DNA from: Pseudomonas migulae
GTDB taxonomy: Bacteria > Pseudomonadota > Gammaproteobacteria > Pseudomonadales > Pseudomonadaceae
Assembly: GCF_024169315.1 (NCBI RefSeq)
Contig: NZ_JALJWR010000001.1
Location: forward strand, 3,026,501 to 3,090,500
DNA: 64,000 nt
Direction: 5' to 3'
Under the pieces are notes generated by a model. The model was not told the DNA's origin. It was given only the letters and a program-made list of their open reading frames with translations, and did no database searches. This document shows positions 6,867 through 20,918 of the stretch, one piece after another; position 1 is the stretch's first letter, and each line of letters starts with the position of its first letter. The translations under genes were made by a program, and so were the position numbers.

Positions 6867-8531
6867 TCAGGCCAGTTTCTTGTGCCGTACACGATGCGGC
6901 TGGGCTGCCGCTTCGCCAAGGCGCTTCTTGCGATCGGCTTCGTACTCGGAGTAGTTGCCTTCGAAGAACACCGCTTGCGAATCGTCTTCGTACGCCAGGA
7001 TGTGAGTCGCGACGCGGTCAAGGAACCACCGATCGTGAGAGATCACAATGGCGGCGCCCGGGAAGTCCAGCAGGGCTTCTTCCAGGGAACGCAGGGTTTC
7101 AACGTCGAGGTCGTTGGACGGTTCGTCGAGCAGCAGGACGTTGCCGCCCTCTTTCAGGGTCAGGGCCAGGTGCAAGCGACCGCGCTCACCACCGGACAGG
7201 TCCTTGACGAACTTCTGCTGATCGCCGCCCTTGAAGTTGAAGCGACCGACGTAGGTACGCGACGGAATCTCGTAGTTGCCGATGCGAATCTGATCCGAAC
7301 CTTCCGAGATTTGCTGGAACACCGTCTTGCTGCCGTCCAGGTCTTCGCGACTCTGATCCACGCAAGCAAGCTGCACGGTTTCGCCGACTTCGATGCTACC
7401 CGAATCCGGTTGTTCCTTGCCCATCAGCATGCGGAACAGGGTCGACTTACCGGCACCGTTACCGCCGATCACGCCAACAATGGCGCCCTTCGGCATGGAG
7501 AACGACAGGTTGTCGATCAACACGCGATCGCCGTAGCCCTTGGTGACGTTCTTGAACTCGATGACCTTGTCGCCCAGGCGTGGACCGGCCGGGATGTAGA
7601 TCTCGTTGGTTTCGCTGCGCTTCTGGAATTCCTGCGATTGCATTTCTTCGAAGCGTTGCAGACGAGCCTTGGATTTGGACTGGCGGGCCTTGGCGCCTTT
7701 GCGCACCCACTCCAGTTCTTCCTTCATGGCTTTTTCGTGGGCCGACTGCTGTTTGGATTCGGCGGCCAGACGGTCGGACTTGGCTTCGAGCCAACCGGAG
7801 TAGTTGCCCTCGTAAGGGATACCGGCGCCGCGGTCGAGTTCGAGGATCCAGCCAGCGACGTTGTCCAGGAAGTAACGGTCGTGCGTGATCGCAACCACGG
7901 TACCCGGGAAGTCGTGCAGGAAGTGCTCCAGCCAGGCGACGGAATCGGCGTCCAGGTGGTTGGTCGGTTCGTCGAGCAGCAGCATGTCCGGTGCGGACAG
8001 CAGCAGGCGGCACAGGGCCACACGACGTTTTTCACCGCCGGAGAGGAATTCGACCTTGGCGTCCCAGGCCGGCAGACGCAGCGCATCGGCGGCGACTTCC
8101 AGTTGACGATCCAGGTTGTGACCGTCGCTGGCTTGCAGGATGGCTTCGAGCTTGGCCTGTTCTGCCGCCAGTTTGTCGAAGTCGGCATCTTCATCAGCGT
8201 AAGCCGCGTAGACCTCGTCCAGGCGCGCCTGGGCGTTCTTGATCACGCTGACCGCTTCCTCGACCACTTCACGCACGGTTTTGGTCGGGTCCAGGATCGG
8301 CTCTTGCGGCAGGTAGCCGATGTTCAGCTCTGGCATCGGACGGGCTTCGCCCTCGAACTCGGTATCAACGCCGGCCATGATTTTCAGCAGCGTGGATTTA
8401 CCCGAACCGTTAAGGCCGAGCACGCCGATCTTGGCGCCTGGGAAGAAGGACAGCGAAATGTTTTTCAGGATTTCCCGCTTCGGCGGAACAACTTTGCCCA
8501 GCCGATGCATGGTGAAGACGTATTGAGCCAT
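6867..8531 (-). CDS. ettA: Energy-dependent translational throttle protein EttA (ABC-F)
   Basis: A 554-residue soluble ABC-F ATPase with two nucleotide-binding domains and no membrane segments. Domain 1 has GLNGSGKST, LSGGEKRR and LLLDEPTNH; domain 2 has GGNGAGKST, LSGGERGR and LLLDEPSND. Between them lies the basic helical linker (around KGAKARQSKSKARLQRF), which in EttA contacts P-site tRNA on the ribosomal E site. EttA gates entry into elongation according to the ATP/ADP ratio. Length and the typical start MAQYVFTMHRL match the family. It is transcribed alone from the region left of morA. Confidence 0.95.
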   Translation of the reverse strand: MAQYVFTMHRLGKVVPPKREILKNISLSFFPGAKIGVLGLNGSGKSTLLKIMAGVDTEFEGEARPMPELNIGYLPQEPILDPTKTVREVVEEAVSVIKNAQARLDEVYAAYADEDADFDKLAAEQAKLEAILQASDGHNLDRQLEVAADALRLPAWDAKVEFLSGGEKRRVALCRLLLSAPDMLLLDEPTNHLDADSVAWLEHFLHDFPGTVVAITHDRYFLDNVAGWILELDRGAGIPYEGNYSGWLEAKSDRLAAESKQQSAHEKAMKEELEWVRKGAKARQSKSKARLQRFEEMQSQEFQKRSETNEIYIPAGPRLGDKVIEFKNVTKGYGDRVLIDNLSFSMPKGAIVGVIGGNGAGKSTLFRMLMGKEQPDSGSIEVGETVQLACVDQSREDLDGSKTVFQQISEGSDQIRIGNYEIPSRTYVGRFNFKGGDQQKFVKDLSGGERGRLHLALTLKEGGNVLLLDEPSNDLDVETLRSLEEALLDFPGAAIVISHDRWFLDRVATHILAYEDDSQAVFFEGNYSEYEADRKKRLGEAAAQPHRVRHKKLA

Positions 8532-8814
8532 GGAGAACCTTGGGTCAGTGACAGATGAATGATTGGAGCGCGGGCGAAGCCCGGCCAGGCCGTGCGCGTC
8601 GAGGATTGACAGGTATCAATGCTGCGCGCTGAAAAAACCTGATTCTAGGAGCTGGAACGCTCCCGCGTAACCGGCAAAGCTACCTTAATGACGAGAGGCA
8701 GTCCAGCCGGGAGGGACTGGCACTTTGCCACAACTCAAGGCATGCTAGCCGCCCTCCGGGCGTCCGGCTTATAGTGCACGTCGCGCCAGTCCAGCCAAAC
8801 CGCAGGATTACAGT

Positions 8815-11800
8815 TTGTCCAATGTCACTCCGCCCCTGATCCCCCGTGCGCCGACTGCAGCGCCTGGCTCCCCCCTGCGCGGAACCTTGAAGGGCGCGCT
8901 GGCGACACTGGTGTTGCTGCTGCTCGCCCTGCTGTTCTGGCAACTGCTGGATCAACTGCGCGAAACCCAGAAAAACCAGCGCCAGTACACCATCGACTAC
9001 ACCGCCGATCTGGCCGCGCAAGTCAGTCTGAACATGGCGCTCAACGCGCAGATCGCCCTCAACCTGCTACCGATCGTCGAACAGCCACAAAGCGCCGACG
9101 AACAGCAGGAGCTGCTTCGCAAGCTGCAGAAATCCTTGCCCGACCTGCTCAGCCTTGCGCTGTTGAGCCCCTCCGGCAAAGTCCTCAGTGATAGCGCCGC
9201 CGACAGCGAGGACGCCGACTACCTCGCCGAGCTGGTTCGTCACAGCCGTCGCCAGGCCCACTATTTCAGCAACGCCGATAACGGTTCGGTGGTGCACTTG
9301 CTGCTGCATCAGGCCAGCGGCAGCACGCGTGGCTACTGGGCCCTGCGTCTGAAGCCGAGCTTTTTATCGTCACTGGCCAAACAGAACGAAACCGGCATCC
9401 GCCCAATGTGGCTGGTGGAAAACCGCTTCAACCACCAGGTCATCAGTCGCGATGATTCGCGCCCTTCGGCCAAGCCCGGCGAACTGACCGAAGACGATGT
9501 GGCCAACAGCGTGCTGACGGTTCCCCTGAGCAGCAGCGACTGGCAATTGCGCGGCTTGTTCGACCGCAAGCGCGTGATTGAAGAACTGTTGCCGGCGTTC
9601 ATCGGCAAATGCCTGTTGGGACTGGCGCTCTCCCTGCTGCCGCTGATCGCCCTGTTGAACATGCGTCGCCGTCAGCGCCAGGTGACTGAAGGTCGTCGAC
9701 GCTATCAGGATATTTTCGAAGGCACCGGCGTCGCGCTGTGTGTACTGGACGTGTCGGGACTCAAGACTGCATTCGACAAAGCCCGGCTGCACAGCAGCGA
9801 AGAACTGCGTGGCTGGCTGGAATCTGCCGAACAACGGCACCAATTGCTCCAGGAACTGCGCATCACCGAAGTCAACCAGGTTGCCCTGCAACTGCTCAAC
9901 GTCAACACCTGCGAACAGGCCTGGAAACTGCTGATCGACGGCAATCCGCTGGACGGCACCGCCATCGGCAACCAAGTGCTCGACGCAGTGCTCAACCAGC
10001 AGAAACAGCTTGAGCTGGAGATCAAGCTCTCGGACGCCAATGGCCGCGACCAGCACTTGTGGCTGGTACTGCGCCTGCCGGAAGACCAGGCTGACTATAA
10101 AGCGGTGATCCTGAGCATCAGCGACATCACCAGCCGCAAGCTCATCGAACTGTCGCTGCTCGAGCGCGAAGGATTCTGGTCCGATGTGGTGCGCACCGTG
10201 CCGGATCACCTGTACGTGCAGGACGTGATCAGCCAGCGCATGATCTTCAGCAACCACCACCTGGGCCAGACGCTCGGCTACGACCGCACCGAGCTGCATC
10301 AGATGGGCGAGTACTTCTGGGAAATCCTCCTTCACCCCGAAGATGCCGACTACTACCATCGTTCGCGCCAGACCCAGCGTCACGCGGGCTACACCCAATT
10401 GCTGCAATGCCAGCTGCGCTTCCGTCACCGGGACGGCAATTGGCGACGTTTCGACATTCGTGAGCAGGCGTTGGCGCGGGACAAGCATAACCAGGTCACG
10501 CGAATCATCGGTGTGGCCAAGGACATCACCGAGCAGATCGAAGCCAGCGAGTCCCTGCGCGACAGCGAGCAGCGTTACCGGATGCTCGCCGAAAGCATCA
10601 GCGACGTGATCTTCTCCACCGACAGCAAGCTCTCGCTCAACTACGTCAGCCCGTCGGTGCAAGCGGTGTTGGGTTACGACACCGATTGGATCTTCCAGAA
10701 CGGCTGGCAGACGACCATTGCCAACCCTCAGCAATTGTCCGGCATCTACGGCCTGATGGACCGCGTCAGCAAAGCGCTGGACAAACCCGACCAACTGGCG
10801 CTGCTGCGCAGCCAGGTACAAACCCAGCTGTTCCTCTTCGATTGCCTGCGGGCCGACGGGCGCAAGATCCCTATCGAGTTGCGTCTGGTGCTGGTCTGGG
10901 ATGAACACGGCGCCTTCGAAGGCGTGCTCGGCGTCGGTCGCGACATCAGCCAGCAGCGCCGCGCCGAGAAAGACCTGCGCATGGCGGCCACGGTATTCGA
11001 ACACTCGACGTCGGCGATCCTGATCACCGACCCGGCGGGCTATATCGTCCAGGCCAACGAAGCGTTCAGTCGCGTGAGCGGCTACGCGGTGGAGCAAGTG
11101 CTCGACCAGTTGCCGAACATGCTGACCGTCGACGAGCAGCAGGAAGCGCATTTGCGCTATGTGCTCAAACAACTGAATCAGCACAGCACCTGGGAAGGCG
11201 AAGTCTGGCTGAAGCGGCGCAATGGCGAGCATTACCCGGCGTGGGTCGGCATCACGGCGGTGCTCGACGACGAAGGCGATCTGGCCAGCTACGTGTGTTT
11301 CTTCAGCGACATCAGCGAGCGCAAGGCCAGTGAACAACGCATTCACCGCCTCGCCTATTACGACGCCCTCACCCACCTGCCCAACCGCACGCTGTTCCAG
11401 GATCGCCTGCACACCGCGCTGCAATCGGCGGAACGGCAGAAGTCCTGGGTGGTGCTGATGTTCCTCGACCTGGACCGTTTCAAACCGATCAACGACTCCC
11501 TCGGCCACGCCGCCGGCGATCGCATGCTCAAGGAAATGGCCACGCGCCTGCTCGGTTGCGTCGATGACGACGACACGGTGGCGCGCATGGGCGGCGACGA
11601 ATTCACCTTGCTGCTGCAACCGCGCGTCAACCGGGAAATCGCCCTGAACCGGGCGATTCACGTGGCGGAGCAGATCCTCGCCAGCCTGGTGAAGCCGTTC
11701 GTGCTCGAAGGCCGCGAGTTTTTCGTCACCGCCAGTATCGGCATCGCCCTGAGTCCGCAGGACGGCAACGAACTCAGTCAGTTGATGAAGAACGCCGACA

Positions 11801-12688: not shown

Positions 12689-12781
12689 CATCGCGGGCAA
12701 GCCCGCTCCCACAGTTTTTTGGGTGAATCCAAGATTTGTGACCACTGAAGATCCCTGTGGGAGCGGGCTTGCCCGCGATGA
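12689..12781. repeat. REP doublet after morA
   Basis: Inverted pair of REP cores with CGCGGGCAAGCCCGCTCCCA, between morA and glyA. Confidence 0.9.
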
Positions 12782-12910
12782 GGCCTGCACATTCACCGCT
12801 GATCCCGTCATGAAGCCCACTTGTCTGCGACATGATCTCCTTTCATATGCCATCTAAAACCCATTGGGTTAGAATGCCCCCCTTTTCTGCCCCGATCCTT
12901 GAGGACCGCC

Positions 12911-14164
12911 ATGTTCAGCCGTGATTTGACTATTGCCAAGTACGACGCCGATCTCTTTGCCGCCATGGAGCAAGAAGCTCAGCGCCAGGAAGAGCACATT
13001 GAGCTGATCGCTTCGGAAAACTACACCAGCCCTGCGGTGATGGAAGCTCAAGGCTCGGTACTGACCAACAAGTACGCCGAAGGCTACCCGGGCAAGCGCT
13101 ACTACGGTGGTTGCGAGTTCGTCGACATCGTCGAGCAACTGGCCATCGACCGCGCCAAGGAGCTGTTCGGCGCTGATTACGCCAACGTCCAGCCGCACGC
13201 CGGTTCGCAAGCCAACAGCGCCGTTTACCTGGCTCTGCTGCAAGCAGGCGACACCATCCTGGGCATGAGCCTGGCTCACGGTGGTCACTTGACCCACGGT
13301 GCCAGCGTTTCTTCCTCCGGCAAGCTGTACAACGCCGTTCAGTACGGTATCGACGCCAATGGCCTGATCGACTACGACGAAGTCGAGCGTCTGGCGGTCG
13401 AGCACAAGCCGAAAATGATCGTGGCCGGTTTCTCTGCCTACTCGCAAATCCTGGACTTCCCGCGCTTCCGCGAAATCGCTGACAAGGTGGGCGCCTACCT
13501 GTTCGTCGACATGGCCCACGTGGCCGGTCTGGTCGCCGCTGGCGTCTACCCGAACCCGGTTCCATTCGCTGACGTCGTGACCACCACCACCCACAAGACC
13601 CTGCGCGGTCCACGTGGCGGTCTGATCCTGGCTCGCGCCAACGCCGACATCGAGAAGAAGCTGAACTCCGCGGTATTCCCGGGTGCCCAGGGTGGCCCGC
13701 TGGAGCACGTGATCGCCGCTAAAGCGATCTGCTTCAAGGAAGCGCTGCAGCCTGAGTTCAAGACCTACCAGCAACAAGTGGTGAAAAACGCCCAGGCCAT
13801 GGCCAGCGTATTCATCGAGCGCGGTTTCGACGTGGTTTCCGGCGGTACTGAAAACCACCTGTTCCTGCTGTCGCTGATCAAGCAGGAAATCTCCGGTAAA
13901 GACGCAGACGCCGCTCTGGGCAAAGCGTTCATCACCGTGAACAAGAACTCCGTGCCAAACGATCCACGCTCCCCGTTCGTCACCTCCGGCCTGCGCTTCG
14001 GTACTCCGGCTGTGACCACTCGTGGCTTCAAGGAAGCAGAGTGCAAGGAACTGGCCGGCTGGATCTGCGACATCCTGGCTGACCTGAACAACGAAGCGGT
14101 GATCGACGCCGTTCGTGAGAAGGTCAAGGCCATCTGCAAGAAGCTGCCGGTATACGGCGCTTAA
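12911..14164 (+). CDS. glyA: Serine hydroxymethyltransferase
   Basis: A 417-residue PLP enzyme converting serine and tetrahydrofolate to glycine and methylene-tetrahydrofolate. The PLP lysine lies in [14 protein letters not shown] near residue 229. Other family blocks ([42 protein letters not shown]) are intact. The start at 12911 gives the usual [10 protein letters not shown]-terminus, with GAGGA nine bases upstream; the frame also opens four codons earlier at a TTG. A terminator follows directly. Pseudomonads often have two glyA genes; this is the one beside morA. Confidence 0.96.
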
Positions 14165-14190
14165 TTGCACCGCTGAACCGCAGTCATGAA

Positions 14191-14220
14191 AAAACCGGCC
14201 AGTGATGGCCGGTTTTTTTT
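14191..14220. terminator. Bidirectional terminator between glyA and lanM
   Basis: AACCGGCC-AGTGAT-GGCCGGTT stem with an A-run before and eight T after. It can stop glyA transcripts and, read on the other strand, the lanthipeptide operon. Confidence 0.92.
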
Positions 14221-14239
14221 CGCCCGGTTTTCGAGTGGG

Positions 14240-17200
14240 TCAGGCAACAACCGGTCTGGCAAAGTCCAGCGACAACACGTCGGGCAAACCGGCCTCCACG
14301 GCATGCAGCAGGGCCTGACCGACGCCCGTGATGCCGAGCATCATGCCCAGGTCAGGGACGTTGCGCTCGTCGAGAAAATCTTCATTGAAGAAATTATGGG
14401 CCACTTGGGAGAGTGCACGCCTGACGTTTGCCTGGCCCTGCTCATCGCCGGTCTCGCGGTAGAGTTTGAGCAGGCACATCAGATTGCCGAAGTCACCATG
14501 GCACAGGCTGTAACCAGACCCCAGGCCGTGCTCCCAGAGATGACGCTCACAACGTTCGGCATCCTGTTCAAGCACTGCTCTGGTCTCAACACCCAGTGCC
14601 TCACCCATCGTTCGAGTCAACCAACGCCGCGAGATGAGAATGCCGCCGTCGCCATGACACCATTTGATAGTGGACGAAGACTTCGCCGTTTCACGCAGAT
14701 CAAGCCAGAAACCGTCGGCTGTCAGGCGGTTTTCTGCCTGTAACCATTGTGTTATCAACTTGGCAAGAAGCGGATCTTTCGTGACCTCCCAGACTTTACC
14801 TATCGCCTGAAGAACACCGGAGATGCCATGGGAGAAACCGGTCCACAGTGGTTTCCCCGTCGCGTTGAGTACCAGCGTTCCATCGTCCAGCGTCAGCGCC
14901 GACTGAATCGCTTGTGAGAACTTCTCGATCAGGAGGCGCAAGGCTTCCCGCTTTTCGAGCTGATAGAGATTCACCAGAACGGTCACTGCCCCGCACCAGC
15001 CATGAATGAAATCGAATTCATCGCCCTCATGTGGAAAGTCGGCCAGTTTCAGCAACAACTCGTCGACAGTCGGCTGATACGTCTGGCGTCCGGTCATGAG
15101 CTGATAGTTGACCAGCACGTATAACCAGGAAGCCAGACCGAAATAAGCACTGACGCTAAGCTCATTGGGAAAATGCCCGTGGGATTTACTCATCGAGCAC
15201 AGGATTCGCTCCGCTTCGTCCAGGTAGCGCGTCGTACCACTGACGCGGAACAGGCTCAGATAGAAAATCGCCAGGCCTCCCATCCCGTTGTACAAACCGC
15301 TGCCCATGGGCGAGATGAAGTGACGTCCGGTGCGTGGGTGGGTGTCCATGAACGTCCAGCCAACATCGCCCTCATCCCCTTCCATGCGCATTTTTTCTAT
15401 GACCCCGGCGATCTTCATCGCACCTTCGAGGCATTGCGCGGGGCTCAGGTCGGGCACGGCCTTGAGTTGATGCTCGCGGTTGAGTGGCAAGGCTTCACTG
15501 GCAACAGGGAACAGGCACATCTGTAACACGTGCATCTGAAAGGCTTTGTCGGCAGGCGAAAGGCTGTCCAGCTTGCGGCGACAACTGTCGAAGGGACGCT
15601 CGATAGCCAGCGACGCAACCGTCTGGCCATGAGCGTCGAGCAAACAGTCAGATAGCAGAGGCTGGGTGAAACACGGGATGTTGGCCTTCGCCAGATCCTC
15701 GATTTCATGCCCGGGAATACCATAATCGTTGAGTGTTTCGTTGAGGTCCGACCACAAGGTTGCCAGCAGCATTTCGTGGCGCACCTTGCATTGGGTAAAT
15801 GTCGGATGAAGCATCATCCCGATGAAGTCGGCATAGCGCTGGGTGTTCTTGATCAGGACTCGGGTTTTCAACCCGGCGGCATGCTGTTCAAGAAGCGCAA
15901 GCACCGCGCCGCTTCGGTTCATGACCTCATCGTAGCCCTGCTCGAAACCGAGGAAAAATGCGCCGCTGTACTCAGTGACCGAACGCGCCTCGCCCTCGAA
16001 AACAGGCAGGTGACGCAGGGTCGGCTGGTTGTCGACGGCGACCTGCTTCAAGCGGTAAAAGCGGTGCTCGCGGACCAGTTGCCTTTTTTTCGAGACAAAC
16101 TGCTGCTGCCGGCTCAAACCACTGTAATCATTGTCCGAGTCCGGCGAATAAGGGACGAAACCGCTCGAATAAACCGACTGGCTGTTGAATTTTATGGCTT
16201 TGAACAACGCACGCCCGTGAGGCACTTTCACTCTCAAATCGATCATGGCCGAGGTGAACAGGCATTCCAGATCGATCATCACCGGGCTGCTACCGCGGGC
16301 AATGATGTTTTCGTAGTGAAAGTCGATGCCATTCAAGGCGTGGATCACTGCCACCTGGGCGCCCAGGCGCTGAAAGAAAAGCGCCAGGTCGCTTTCCGAG
16401 TCACAAGCCAGGTTTTCGATCTTTTCGATCCAGCAGTGATTGTCCAGAGACACCATGATCGGTGAGTAAACCGAAAAGCAGGTGTTGCCAGTGTGTTCAT
16501 GCAATTGGTCGAGCAATGCACCGTAAAACAGTGCTTCCCGGTTGTTCCTCGGCTTGTACATCAGTGACTGGTTGCCGATCCTGAGGCAACAGACGGTCTC
16601 GCCATTGGCATGGGAATCCCCAAGGCCGAGGATGATCGAATCGATCTGCCTGCCGGACAATCCAAAAGCCGTGTCCAGCCGGTTGATATCTTCGACGAAA
16701 TGACCGATTACCTTGTAAAGGTACATCACGATGTCGTCGACCTGATCCAGCAGCAGACGTGTCAGTACCGGGTACGAAGTCAGGAATGGAACCAGTGCCT
16801 CGTCTGCCAGCGCCCGGTCAAACGTTTCGAGATCCAGCTCGTTGCCATTGGCTATCCGGCTGTTTAGTTGATGAACCAGCGACTTTTCCGAGAAACTCTT
16901 AATGAGTGAAATGACATATGGACGGACGCTCGAGAGAAACGTCTCGACATCAATCCACTTGCGAAATAAATTGTATTTTTCGTCACTGTAAAAAACGTGT
17001 TTGAAGTAAACATGCCAGCGAGCATAAAAACTGCTGAATGCATCCTGCCCCTCACACTCATGTCGCAGAGAAGCAATTATCCCAACTTTCCGATCCAGCT
17101 CCTCAACGACGGGAGCATTGCCCTTATTGACCACCTGTGAAGAGCAGTGAAGTTGTTTCAACAACCCCTGCCTGTCGGTACCGAAATAACGCAAAACAGC

Positions 17201-17353
17201 CTTATCATTCTTGTGCAAAAGATCGAGACACTTGCGCATCGCATCATGATCGGTTATCGCGCACCATGACTTACGCTCATTGAAATCCAGGATATCATTC
17301 AACATCTGCAACCGCTCTTGGCGAACAGAGCGGGTCACTGACCCGCCCCGCAT
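14240..17353 (-). CDS. Class II lanthipeptide synthetase LanM
   Basis: A bifunctional enzyme of 1037 residues that phosphorylates and eliminates Ser/Thr in a precursor peptide, then adds Cys thiols to form thioether rings. The N-terminal DUF4135 dehydratase has GDSHANGETV at 246-255, YKPR at 266-269, DFHYEN at 344-349 and MIDLECLF at 359-366. The LanC-like cyclase has FIHGWCG near 782-788 (His784), GFSHGISG at 839-846, WCHGDGG (Cys899) and LCHGDFGN (Cys951, His952). These are the three zinc ligands and the usual HG motifs, so both halves look active. It lies directly downstream of the precursor gene. The ATG at 17353 has a poor ribosome-binding site; Met17 (17305) is an alternative start. No LanT or immunity gene is nearby. 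Confidence 0.93.
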   Translation of the reverse strand: MRGGSVTRSVRQERLQMLNDILDFNERKSWCAITDHDAMRKCLDLLHKNDKAVLRYFGTDRQGLLKQLHCSSQVVNKGNAPVVEELDRKVGIIASLRHECEGQDAFSSFYARWHVYFKHVFYSDEKYNLFRKWIDVETFLSSVRPYVISLIKSFSEKSLVHQLNSRIANGNELDLETFDRALADEALVPFLTSYPVLTRLLLDQVDDIVMYLYKVIGHFVEDINRLDTAFGLSGRQIDSIILGLGDSHANGETVCCLRIGNQSLMYKPRNNREALFYGALLDQLHEHTGNTCFSVYSPIMVSLDNHCWIEKIENLACDSESDLALFFQRLGAQVAVIHALNGIDFHYENIIARGSSPVMIDLECLFTSAMIDLRVKVPHGRALFKAIKFNSQSVYSSGFVPYSPDSDNDYSGLSRQQQFVSKKRQLVREHRFYRLKQVAVDNQPTLRHLPVFEGEARSVTEYSGAFFLGFEQGYDEVMNRSGAVLALLEQHAAGLKTRVLIKNTQRYADFIGMMLHPTFTQCKVRHEMLLATLWSDLNETLNDYGIPGHEIEDLAKANIPCFTQPLLSDCLLDAHGQTVASLAIERPFDSCRRKLDSLSPADKAFQMHVLQMCLFPVASEALPLNREHQLKAVPDLSPAQCLEGAMKIAGVIEKMRMEGDEGDVGWTFMDTHPRTGRHFISPMGSGLYNGMGGLAIFYLSLFRVSGTTRYLDEAERILCSMSKSHGHFPNELSVSAYFGLASWLYVLVNYQLMTGRQTYQPTVDELLLKLADFPHEGDEFDFIHGWCGAVTVLVNLYQLEKREALRLLIEKFSQAIQSALTLDDGTLVLNATGKPLWTGFSHGISGVLQAIGKVWEVTKDPLLAKLITQWLQAENRLTADGFWLDLRETAKSSSTIKWCHGDGGILISRRWLTRTMGEALGVETRAVLEQDAERCERHLWEHGLGSGYSLCHGDFGNLMCLLKLYRETGDEQGQANVRRALSQVAHNFFNEDFLDERNVPDLGMMLGITGVGQALLHAVEAGLPDVLSLDFARPVVA
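17330..17346 (-). promoter_or_regulatory. Hairpin between precursor and synthetase genes
   Basis: GCGGGTCA and TGACCCGC form an eight-base palindrome around one base, at the junction of the precursor stop (17364) and the synthetase start. It has no T-run, so it is not a full terminator. It could damp synthetase translation or protect the precursor message, giving more substrate than enzyme. It falls inside the synthetase frame if the ATG at 17353 is used, and before it if Met17 is the true start. Confidence 0.5.
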
Positions 17354-17363
17354 GATGGGAGGA

Positions 17364-17516
17364 TCAGCAGCAGCCTAAAACAGTGCATTGCAAGGTGCCG
17401 CACGAAGCGTTGGTGCACAGGGTGGCGCCGCCTTCAATATCGGCATCACCGGAGCTTACATACGCTTCAAACTCGGCATCCAGATCACCCGACAGAACCA
17501 TAATTTGTTCTTGCAT
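17364..17516 (-). CDS. Class II lanthipeptide precursor (LanA)
   Basis: A 50-residue open frame starting at an ATG seven bases after AGGAGA, ending 10 bases before the LanM start codon. The 30-residue leader is acidic and ends in GDADIEGG, a double-glycine cleavage site. The 20-residue core reads ATLCTNASCGTLQCTVLGCC. It holds five Cys and exactly five Ser/Thr (four Thr, one Ser), enough for five (methyl)lanthionine rings. It ends in a Cys pair. The CTLTxEC lipid-II motif of mersacidin is not present, though two CT-x3-C segments recall that shape loosely. The size, the position and the leader fit a LanM substrate; ring pattern, activity and target are unknown. Confidence 0.88.
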   Translation of the reverse strand: MQEQIMVLSGDLDAEFEAYVSSGDADIEGGATLCTNASCGTLQCTVLGCC

Positions 17517-17965
17517 GATTTTTCTCCTGATAAATACACAGTCGCCTTAGTTGGCGCCGACAAAAGCTACCACTCACCGCCAGCCTTATCCCTCCATCAA
17601 ATAAAACCAAATGTAAACAACCACCACCGAACAACTACCGACGTACACACCACAACTAAAACAAAAACCAAACGCGCTGTAATACTTGGACAAGTCAAGA
17701 ATAGAAAAAACCAACAAAACAAGAGCTCACAATGCGTTTCTGAATTTAACAGATAGAACGACTCACCTCTGACCTGAACACACTCCATCGAATAAAACCC
17801 TAACTAATCAAGATGAGAGTTTAATATTTTTTTACAACAAACAGCCCATGAATGATCCACACATCGATTTTCTGAAGAGCTGCCTTGCCTGCGATAACCC
17901 CATAAGCCTGGCGTCGAATCCCGGGCCGCTTTCGCAGGGAAGCCCACTGCTATGGAATCCATACC

Positions 17966-17980
17966 ACTGGTCAGACCGGT
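17966..17980. promoter_or_regulatory. Candidate FadR/GntR-type operator upstream of dctA
   Basis: ACTGGTC-A-GACCGGT is a near-perfect 15-base palindrome (one mismatched pair). The GGTC-N-GACC shape resembles sites bound by FadR-family GntR regulators such as PdhR and LldR. Two FadR-type regulator genes lie just downstream of the carrier, so one of them is the likely ligand. This is inference from shape and context. Confidence 0.55.
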
Positions 17981-18003
17981 CATGCCAATTGTTGGATTTC
18001 TAC

Positions 18004-18033
18004 TTGTCACCGCAAAAAAACCGAGCGTAGACT
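18004..18033 (+). promoter_or_regulatory. Candidate sigma-70 promoter of dctA
   Basis: TTGTCA at 18004-18009 and TAGACT at 18028-18033 are 18 bases apart, about 100 bases before the dctA start and about 23 bases after the palindrome at 17966-17980. Confidence 0.45.
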
Positions 18034-18131
18034 GCGCCTGCACTGGACATACCGGTAAGACCACAATAATTAAGTCCTGAATCTGATGCGCACAGCGCAC
18101 GGCAGCCAGGACACCGACCAGGATCCCTCCC

Positions 18132-19445
18132 ATGCTCAGATGGTGCTCGCGCTCAATCTTCCTTCAAGTGGTTCTCGGACTGGTGCTCGGCATCGTCTGC
18201 GGGCTGACCCTTCCTGAATACTCCGCCCAGCTCAAACCGCTCGGCGATGGCTTCATCAAACTGATCAAGATGCTCATCGGTCTGATCGTGTTCTGCGTGG
18301 TGGTCAGCGGCATCAGCGGTGCCGGCGACCTGAAGAAGGTCGGGCGCATTGGCCTGAAATCGGTGATCTACTTCGAAATCCTGACCACCATCGCCCTGGT
18401 GATTGGCCTGGTGTTCGCTTTCACCACCGGCATCGGCAGCGGTGCAAACATTCATCTGGAGCAGCTGTCTGCTGCCGACATGGGCGACATCGCCCAGCGC
18501 GGTCAGCACATGCAAACCACCTCCCAGTTCCTGATGAACCTGATCCCGACCTCGGTCATCGGGGCCTTCGCGGAGAACAACATTCTGCAAGTCCTGCTGT
18601 TCTCGGTGCTGTTCGGCAGCGCACTGAACCTGGTGGGCGAAGCCGCGTCGGGTATTTCCCGGCTGATCAATGAGCTGAGCCACGTGATCTTCCGCATCAT
18701 GGGCATGATCGTGCGCCTGGCGCCGATCGGCGTGTTCGGCGCGATAGCCTTCACCACCAGCAAATATGGCCTGGACTCGCTGCAACATCTGGGCAGCCTG
18801 GTTGGCCTGTTTTACCTGACCTGCGTGGCGTTCGTGGCCTTGATTCTCGGCCTGGTGATGCGTCTTTCGGGCCTGAAGATGTGGCCGCTGCTCAAGTACC
18901 TGCGCGAAGAATTGCTGATCGTCATGGGCACCGCTTCGTCCGACGCCGTGCTGCCACAAATCATGCGCAAGCTTGAGCATCTGGGTATCGGCAGCTCGAC
19001 GGTCGGCCTGGTGATTCCAACCGGTTATTCGTTCAACCTCGACGGTTTTTCGATCTACCTGACCCTCGCCATTGTCTTCATCGCCAATGCCACCGGTACG
19101 CCACTGGCCATGACCGATCTGCTGACGATTCTGCTCGTGTCATTGATCACCTCCAAAGGCGCCCACGGGATTCCCGGCTCGGCGCTGGTGATTCTGGCGG
19201 CGACGCTGACCGCGATTCCGGCGATTCCGGTGGTCGGCCTGGTGCTGGTGCTGGCGGTGGACTGGTTCATGGGCATCGGGCGGGCGCTGACCAACCTGAT
19301 TGGTAACTGCGTCGCCACCGTGGCCATCGCGCGCTGGGAAAAAGACATCGATATCCAACGGGCAAATAAAGTGCTTTCGGGTCAGGTGGGTTATACCTTC
19401 CAGCCGAGAAAACCGGTGGCCCCGGCGCATCAGCAGGAATTTTAA
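18132..19445 (+). CDS. dctA: DctA-type C4-dicarboxylate/proton(sodium) symporter
   Basis: A 437-residue inner-membrane carrier of the dicarboxylate/amino acid:cation symporter family, taking up succinate, fumarate or malate. It has about eight membrane helices, the GTASSDAVLP loop and the signature GYSFNLDGFSIYLTLA, which fits DctA rather than the glutamate carriers. Two FadR-type regulators follow on the same strand and a GntR-like operator precedes it, suggesting ligand control by an organic acid. Pseudomonads may have several DctA paralogues, so the exact substrate is open. Confidence 0.85.
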   Translation: MLRWCSRSIFLQVVLGLVLGIVCGLTLPEYSAQLKPLGDGFIKLIKMLIGLIVFCVVVSGISGAGDLKKVGRIGLKSVIYFEILTTIALVIGLVFAFTTGIGSGANIHLEQLSAADMGDIAQRGQHMQTTSQFLMNLIPTSVIGAFAENNILQVLLFSVLFGSALNLVGEAASGISRLINELSHVIFRIMGMIVRLAPIGVFGAIAFTTSKYGLDSLQHLGSLVGLFYLTCVAFVALILGLVMRLSGLKMWPLLKYLREELLIVMGTASSDAVLPQIMRKLEHLGIGSSTVGLVIPTGYSFNLDGFSIYLTLAIVFIANATGTPLAMTDLLTILLVSLITSKGAHGIPGSALVILAATLTAIPAIPVVGLVLVLAVDWFMGIGRALTNLIGNCVATVAIARWEKDIDIQRANKVLSGQVGYTFQPRKPVAPAHQQEF

Positions 19446-19451
19446 ATAACG

Positions 19452-19478
19452 TGTGCCTGCCTGCGGGCAGGCACATTT
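19452..19478 (+). terminator. Hairpin after dctA
   Basis: TGTGCCTGCC (19452-19461) pairs with GGCAGGCACA (19466-19475) around a TGCG loop, followed by a short T-rich tail. Termination may be partial and allow some reading into the regulator genes. Confidence 0.65.
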
Positions 19479-19498
19479 ATCGCGACTTGGAGCGAACA

Positions 19499-20212
19499 GT
19501 GATTACCTCGTCAACCGTCGTCAACTCAGTGGTAGAAAAACTCCGGGCCGCCTTGGCCCGTGGTCAGTGGCGCTCCGGCGAAATGTTGCCCGGGCAACGT
19601 GAACTGGCGGAGCAACTGGGCATCAGCCGCCCGAGCCTGCGCGAGGCGGTGATCGTGCTGGAAACCCTCGGGCTGGTGCGTTCGATGCCAGGCAAAGGCG
19701 TGGTGGTGCTGGAGGCCAATCTCAGTGACAGCCAAAGCCACGACAGCGCGGTGGCCGGTGCAAGCCTGGAAGATGTGCTGCAACTGCGCTACACCCTCGA
19801 GCCGTTTATCGTCGGTCTGGTGGCGCAATCCATCAGCAGCAAGGAGGTCGGGCAACTGCGCCTGACGCTGATGGACATGCGCGAAGCGCTGGAGGCCAAC
19901 GACAGCGAGGCCGGGGTCAATGCCTACATCGCCTTCCATGAAGAGCTGTTCACCCTGACCTCCAATCCGATTTTCCAGAGCGTGGTGCAGCAGACCAGCA
20001 ATGCCCTCAAGCAAAGCGCCGAGGTACTGCGCAACTCCCCCGAGCATCTGGCTGAGCGTCTCGAAGAGAACGAAGCCGTGGTGCGCGCGATCCGCAGCAA
20101 GAACAGCGCCCAGGCCAGCGCCGAAATGCGTCGGCACATCCTTCGTGAAGGTCAGCGGATGGGCATCGAATTGAATATCCCGGACGACAACCTCGGCCGT
20201 TCAAACCTATAA
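19499..20212 (+). CDS. FadR-subfamily GntR regulator
   Basis: A 237-residue DNA-binding regulator. The winged-helix domain covers about residues 8-75 (RSGEMLPGQRELAEQLGISR, then SLREAVIVLETLGLV), and the all-helical FCD ligand domain covers about 90-225 (YTLEPFIVGLVAQ, NAYIAFHEELFTL). I chose GTG at 19499 because GGAG lies eight bases upstream; the longer frame starts inside the dctA terminator hairpin. It is followed after 16 bases by a second FadR-type regulator. Together with dctA it likely controls organic acid uptake. Confidence 0.88.
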   Translation: MITSSTVVNSVVEKLRAALARGQWRSGEMLPGQRELAEQLGISRPSLREAVIVLETLGLVRSMPGKGVVVLEANLSDSQSHDSAVAGASLEDVLQLRYTLEPFIVGLVAQSISSKEVGQLRLTLMDMREALEANDSEAGVNAYIAFHEELFTLTSNPIFQSVVQQTSNALKQSAEVLRNSPEHLAERLEENEAVVRAIRSKNSAQASAEMRRHILREGQRMGIELNIPDDNLGRSNL

Positions 20213-20228
20213 AAACCGGAGACAGGCC

Positions 20229-20918
20229 ATGAACAGCTTCGCGTCACCGCACACTCTTGTTGCCCTGCCCTTTTCCCCGCCGGTGGATGATCTGTACTCG
20301 CGTGTCTTCGACGCCATTCTCGAGCAGCGCATCCATGCAGCCAGCCGCTTTACTGAAGAAAGCCTGGCGCAGATGTTCGGCGTTCGCCGCAGTGAGATTC
20401 GTGGGGTGTTGACGCAACTGTCTCATCAGCAGGTCATCGTCCTTCGGGCCAATCATCGCCCCCGCGTCGCCATGCTCGATAGCGAGCAGATTCGGCAGAC
20501 GTTGCATGCCCGGCGGTTGACTGAGACCACGGTGGTGCGGCTGGCCTGTCAGCAGCCCCATCCGCAAGACTTGAAAAGTCTACGAGCCCTGATCGATAGC
20601 GAGCGTCACTGTGCGGCGCGTGGGTCGGCGATCCGGTTGTCGGGGGAGTTTCATCTGAAGTTGGCGGAAATGGCGGGGAATGCACCGTTGGCGCATTTTT
20701 TGGGTAGTCTGGTACCGCTGTCGTCGCTGGCGATTGCGCAGTTGGATGTGCGGGCGGGAGGTTATTGCGATTGGCAGAATCACGGGAAAATTGTGAATGC
20801 GGTGGAGCGCGGGGATGCAGTGACCGCCGAGGATTTGCTGAGTCAGCATCTGGATCAATTGGAGGCAGTTTTACTGAACTCACAACCGATGTCCCGCCAA
20901 AATCGTGTTGCTGGTTAG
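20229..20918 (+). CDS. Second FadR-subfamily GntR regulator
   Basis: A 229-residue paralogue type: an N-terminal winged helix at about residues 20-85 (SRFTEESLAQMFGVRRSEIR, QVIVLRANHRPRVAML) and an FCD ligand domain to the end (RRLTETTVVRLACQQ, SGEFHLKLAEMAGN, HLDQLEAVL). GGAG precedes the ATG. It forms a tandem pair with the preceding regulator, and the two are unlike each other in sequence, so they may sense different ligands or act as antagonists. Confidence 0.85.
   Translation: MNSFASPHTLVALPFSPPVDDLYSRVFDAILEQRIHAASRFTEESLAQMFGVRRSEIRGVLTQLSHQQVIVLRANHRPRVAMLDSEQIRQTLHARRLTETTVVRLACQQPHPQDLKSLRALIDSERHCAARGSAIRLSGEFHLKLAEMAGNAPLAHFLGSLVPLSSLAIAQLDVRAGGYCDWQNHGKIVNAVERGDAVTAEDLLSQHLDQLEAVLLNSQPMSRQNRVAG

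Follow-up and report, generated by a model that had tools for sequence, protein, structure and literature searches.

A 64,000-nucleotide stretch of the Pseudomonas migulae genome (the window) carries a LanM class II lanthipeptide synthetase gene and the gene of a 50-residue precursor, arranged head-to-tail on the minus strand from 17516 to 14240 (Table 1) and flanked by glyA (12911–14164) and a dicarboxylate symporter gene (18132–19445). We consider it highly probable that this lan pair is a two-gene class II lanthipeptide operon whose precursor is made in excess, receives three rings and leaves the cell by general export, and whose product is probably a secreted competition peptide. Judged by its sequence the locus is of class II: a synthetase with DUF4135 and LanC-like domains and the expected motifs and zinc ligands lies beside a precursor with a conserved leader and a Ser/Thr/Cys core.

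The unlisted 50-residue gene that the initial annotation placed directly upstream of lanM was confirmed with exactly the sequence given there, and the count of five Cys facing five Ser/Thr in its core was also correct. The precursor had no matches to Pfam or NCBIfam models at E-values up to 10, and so no curated model of the mersacidin/lichenicidin precursor family matched it; an Rfam scan of 14000–18300 likewise gave no matches. We nonetheless regard lanA as a genuine gene, a chance ORF being excluded by the GGAG found ahead of it in all 11 distinct loci of clade A (the window and relatives of 54–73% identity, with one precursor each) and by dN below dS (0.219/0.728 and 0.223/0.809 in gapless comparisons of the window precursor with two relatives). 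The core alone gave a higher ratio against the same two relatives (0.307/0.897 and 0.372/0.724).

The lanM ORF, taken at its full extent (14240–17353), has matches to DUF4135 (242 bits) and LANC_like (170 bits), scored 540 bits against TIGR03897 lanti_2_LanM (cut-off 304 bits), and over residues 186–1031 is similar to LicM2 (6st5, E-value 1.7e-74). In the 1021-residue numbering it carries GDSHANG (229), YKPR (250), DFHYENI (328), IDLE (344), WCHG (882) and LCHG (934), whose key residues we take to be catalytic. The dehydratase motifs align with both CylM and LicM2, the CylM alignment taking in these motifs and the R...T pair, while WCHG aligns with LicM2 and LCHG with both; as sequence motifs, WCHG and LCHG supply C-C-H zinc ligands. 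With the domains and motifs of each half present, the proposal of a complete LanM with both catalytic halves holds, as does that of a class II lanthipeptide locus in a pseudomonad, to which family, domains, motifs and neighbouring precursors all point. This LanM is the sole LANC_like match in its own genome. The synthetase would bind the conserved leader, its N-terminal half would phosphorylate core Ser/Thr and then eliminate, and its zinc-bearing C-terminal half would add Cys thiols across the dehydrated residues.

Table 1. Features of the lan locus (positions in the window)
Feature	Position	Strand	Description
lanM	14240..17305	-	LanM synthetase of class II; its length is 1021 aa with the probable start MLNDILDFNERKSW and would be 1037 aa with the ATG at 17353
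Intergenic RNA hairpin between lanA and lanM	17325..17351	-	11-bp stem; candidate attenuator or stability element that may set the lanA:lanM ratio
lanA	17364..17516	-	50-aa precursor; leader of residues 1–30 with GG end; predicted core 31–50 ATLCTNASCGTLQCTVLGCC
lanA Shine-Dalgarno TCAGGAG	17524..17530	-	TCAGGAG in 8/11 and GGAG in 11/11 clade A loci
Palindrome CGCC-N6-GGCG	17542..17556	-	Conserved, just upstream of the lanA ribosome site; candidate operator or 5'-leader hairpin

The family to which the lan pair belongs is spread thinly across the genus Pseudomonas. LanM matches were found in 24 of 398 sampled Pseudomonas genomes, 18 of them close (39–100% identity, with the match in one of these, G388, lying in two pieces) and six with weak or spurious matches only. 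One match, in G140, fell within glyA and was discarded as spurious, and remote LanM-like matches of 23–27% identity (L020–L024 and L027, in G169, G006, G105, G385, G204 and G313) are apparently of a different kind. Nine named records (L031–L039) also carry the lanA–lanM pair, and three of them are genomes of the sample under another handle: L035 is G058, L036 is G211 and L038 is G131. No close LanM was seen outside Pseudomonas: a class search gave matches in five of 368 other genomes (E-values of 1e-20 or less, 24–33% identity), a phylum search gave none in 397 other genomes at 1e-30 or less, 189 plasmid records were all below 60% identity (the best of 12 listed being 27.4%), and the only phage match was to one remote Enterococcus record.

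The initial annotation had staked its claim in part on homologous precursors lying next to related LanM genes in other genomes, and these were present beside the close LanMs of all 18 carriers. A profile built from 19 precursors identified 32 precursors in the 398 genomes, all in these same 18 genomes and all at the LanM locus, with none away from it and none at all in the 380 non-carriers; since 10 of the 18 carriers had supplied rows of the query alignment their recovery was expected, and the test lies in the other eight and in the absence elsewhere. Beside clade A there is a sister clade B (about 43–46% identity) with two or more precursors per LanM, a short alpha precursor with a TIVECGTAECTALLC-like core and a longer beta precursor with a ATTMECNTFGTCTNLECSTIMC-like core, and a more distant locus, L053 (G259, 38–39% identity), with a single precursor. 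Neither the window nor any other clade A locus has the two different precursors of a two-component lantibiotic. By leader pattern we collected 37 precursors (11 clade A, 11 alpha, 13 beta and two others), the pattern having missed one alpha peptide, L042, that was visible in other analyses. Individual clade B loci showed further variation: G313 has a third precursor downstream of lanM (L048 11024), G340 a duplicated beta precursor with a truncated copy of the hairpin (L050 8338/8576), and G388 (L054, about 7033–9499) a lanM in two pieces together with an alpha precursor that lacks a ring Cys, through either decay or sequencing error.

These precursors bear directly on the ring pattern. A template of three rings, with one inserted ring allowed, fits 36 of the 37 (the 13 beta peptides use the insertion), and the sole misfit is an alpha peptide from G388, a genome in which lanM is likewise broken. 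Across 19 aligned precursors Cys39, Cys44 and Cys49 are invariant and Thr35 nearly so. Cys34 and Cys50 occur in nine of the 11 clade A members and are jointly missing from L035, L055 and clade B; in two clade A members the Cys50 equivalent lies one residue later at the C-terminus, and L037 has an inserted Pro. As the nine five-Cys members form one branch on the LanM tree (100/100), the co-occurrence of Cys34 and Cys50 could stem from one event and is no more than suggestive. Because of the template fit, the limitation of the extra Cys to one subclade and the shortage of Ser/Thr in four of the nine five-Cys cores (L031, L032, L034 and L037, each with four Ser/Thr for five Cys counted from residue 27), we predict a product with three methyllanthionine rings, probably Thr35–Cys39, Thr41–Cys44 and Thr45–Cys49 in precursor numbering, and with Cys34 and Cys50 left out of the rings, either joined by a disulfide or as two free thiols. 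The calculated mass of the core is 1960.82 Da without modification, 1906.79 Da after three dehydrations, 1904.77 Da if a disulfide is added to these, and 1870.77 Da after five dehydrations. The model of the initial annotation, with every Cys in a ring (five dehydrations, five rings and no free thiol), agrees with the five Ser/Thr that the window core offers to its five Cys, but we think it quite improbable: those four relatives have fewer Ser/Thr than Cys, L035 and L055 retain the three-ring core without either extra Cys, and in the window itself Ser38 adjoins Cys39 and Thr32 is not conserved.

Between the two genes lies a hairpin whose conservation could be observed directly. In the 11 clade A loci it is GC-rich and of diverged sequence, and 95.9% of cells were paired, against 39–49% when the pairing was slid, and 7 of the 11 pairs had changes on both sides, a level reached by none of 500 shuffles, figures that come from a stem chosen after viewing these sequences and from shuffles that ignore relatedness. 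The clade B hairpin is nearly invariant and thus uninformative on covariation, and the minimum-energy fold of the window's own sequence at this place is a different pairing. A scan for promoters and terminators gave 2 and 3 sites, where shuffles gave 2.2 and 4.3. None of the sites fell at the hairpin, so that an attenuator is a possible role to which the terminator scan lends no support. With a strong ribosome site ahead of lanA and this hairpin before lanM, whose own ribosome site is weak as judged by eye, the precursor is probably made in excess over LanM. The lanM start is probably the ATG at 17303–17305 rather than that at 17353, because the latter ends at the first base of the hairpin stem, an MLxxxL start is shared by seven of the 11 clade A loci including the window (among translated frames, which did not include L035, L037 and L039), and L031 has a stop codon between the hairpin and this start; in L036 the LanM N-terminus is different. 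Upstream of lanA, the palindrome was paired in 97.7% of cells against 25–43% when slid (11 loci), with weak covariation that 29 of 500 shuffles reached, and its pattern has one match in the window where 0.07 is expected. Elsewhere in the window, at 12690–12785, there is a facing pair of GC-rich palindromes (gcgggcaagcccgctcccaca), which we take to be REP-like.

The window leader does end in the double glycine on which the initial annotation drew, but the data do not support it as a defining feature of the family: GG stands at the cleavage site in only six of 11 clade A precursors, and many precursors lack it. Genome-wide searches for C39 domains in the window's own genome and the 17 other carriers, with 30 of 33 matches in those other carriers read (the remaining three being of ABC length and below 27 bits), identified no C39 protein at the lan locus in any of the 18, and thus no classical LanT with a C39 peptidase domain near it. 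A canonical C39-ABC protein was present in one carrier, G210, with the motif QTEATECG and on another contig, while G058 has a higher-scoring ABC-length C39 protein without the Q-x5-C motif. The window's own genome has two C39 matches, an ABC-length domain without this motif and a stand-alone protein with QKTDFSC, the latter also present in all 17 other carriers. As neither an exporter nor a leader protease dedicated to the pair came to light, we suggest that both steps probably use a general route. That an unlinked general protease such as this stand-alone C39 peptidase does the cleaving is compatible with its presence in every carrier, and clade B has the gene of a LonB-like protease a few kilobases upstream; we nevertheless find the proposal doubtful, given the many precursors without GG and the setting of the C39 gene, which in the window's own genome sits among repeat-rich secreted proteins and probably has another job. 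Because relatives have lost GG, the question of export can be tested directly.

The neighbours of the pair in the window are ordinary (glyA, an SDF symporter, two GntR/FCD genes, cobW and a GGDEF-EAL gene), with no immunity-like gene among those named. At the other loci, 15 of 28 neighbouring ORFs had no Pfam match, some surely antisense and with the neighbours of L053 nearly all unnamed, and none of the rest, among locus neighbours, was LanFEG-like; those named include GreA/B, an ABC-F-like protein with two ATPase domains, CstA and an Lnb_N protein. The missing C39 at 18 carrier loci, the single canonical C39-ABC in 18 genomes, the unconserved cleavage site and the want of an immunity-like gene among the named window neighbours would all suit a peptide that acts in the cell or periplasm, for example in metal or redox binding or in signalling, rather than as a secreted antibiotic. 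We hold this to be unlikely: the exporter search took in C39 proteins only, and an accessory distribution, a tree conflict (below) and a sister clade with two precursors look more like a secreted competition factor. A related and equally unlikely view takes the locus as a member of a Pseudomonas-restricted family that has no dedicated exporter, protease or immunity gene, with a product that either acts unsecreted or uses a shared envelope route and that in the five-Cys branch would be closed by a Cys34–Cys50 disulfide clasp.

The position of the pair and the histories of its neighbours suggest exchange. Of the 30 nearest glyA genes, 29 had a readable locus, and in these the first recognised gene beyond glyA was the symporter in 23, cobW in four and lanM in two. 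Seven of the 11 clade A loci have the pair on the glyA side and four have it between a GntR gene and cobW; the clade B locus lies beyond the GGDEF gene, a few kilobases away. Depending on the species, the module of symporter and two GntR/FCD genes (18132–20918 in the window) stands between glyA and cobW to one side or the other of the pair, or is missing there. In the GGDEF-EAL tree the window joins the P. migulae locus L036 (100/99; 97.1% identity), whereas in the LanM tree it joins L034 (94/94), its LanM being 67% identical to that of L036; between these two sets of identities there was hardly any correlation (45 clade A pairs, Spearman 0.24, p 0.11). AU tests, with groups picked after the trees and with one marker gene, rejected window plus L036 on LanM (p 7.9e-13) and window plus L034 on GGDEF (p 5.6e-9). 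In G262, with a GlyA of 100% identity after rounding, a short remnant of the lanM 3' end follows glyA and precedes cobW (L068, about 2828–2860), and by its sequence this is a deletion scar in a close relative. Based on the conflicting trees and this scar, the lan pair is best read as an accessory locus whose alleles are exchanged within one chromosomal region. The G262 scar and the lanM in two pieces of G388 could also be taken as signs of a decaying remnant without present function, which we judge very improbable for the window copy, since it is open throughout, its precursor has dN below dS and its LanM keeps the motifs of both halves.

Drawing on the distribution of the family and the tree conflict, we regard a secreted peptide for competition as the most likely role, perhaps against Gram-positive neighbours, targets that would explain the apparent lack of an immunity gene; a general role in the cell keeps a smaller share of our expectation. 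With the lan pair, a genus common in soil provides a lanthipeptide system that is small and clonable and is exchanged on the chromosome. The split between one and two peptides within one LanM family, with 37 precursors on a fixed ring template, suits study of how LanM sets rings, and the pair itself suits study of Gram-negative peptide release without LanT.

A lanthipeptide locus in Pseudomonas is less of a novelty than the initial annotation supposed, as class II clusters have already been annotated in the genus (PMC8719888, PMC8704066, PMC9059233; accessible passages). In those passages, P. fluorescens strains are reported to have a putative precursor next to a LanM of TIGR03897 (PMC8719888), an arrangement that by annotation resembles the lan pair; five class II clusters are reported in P. 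fluorescens genomes, with presence in two of 37 reference genomes (PMC8704066); and antiSMASH hits are listed (PMC9059233, PMC9720083). The passages available from these four papers offer neither a precursor sequence nor a ring pattern, and they describe no hairpin, sister clade or analysis of transporters. We found no experimental characterisation of a Pseudomonas lanthipeptide in the literature searched, whose coverage mostly left out subscription papers.

Prochlorosin (ProcM) systems resemble the lan pair in having a Gram-negative host and no classical complete cluster beside their precursors. In the ProcM type the zinc site is made of three Cys, and the precursors are many and scattered. 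In contrast, the window LanM has WCHG and LCHG and hence C-C-H ligands in place of three Cys, and no precursors were found away from the lan locus in the 398 genomes. Synthetases of the ProcM type carry the label D-CCC in the accessible part of PMC11251773. CylM (5dzt) aligns with the window LanM in the dehydratase motifs, with weaker similarity (E-value 2.6e-42). Lichenicidin loci carry transporter and immunity genes. LicM2, the lichenicidin synthetase, is remote in sequence from the window LanM but is its best-scoring solved relative, with which it shares both its architecture and its C-C-H zinc ligands.
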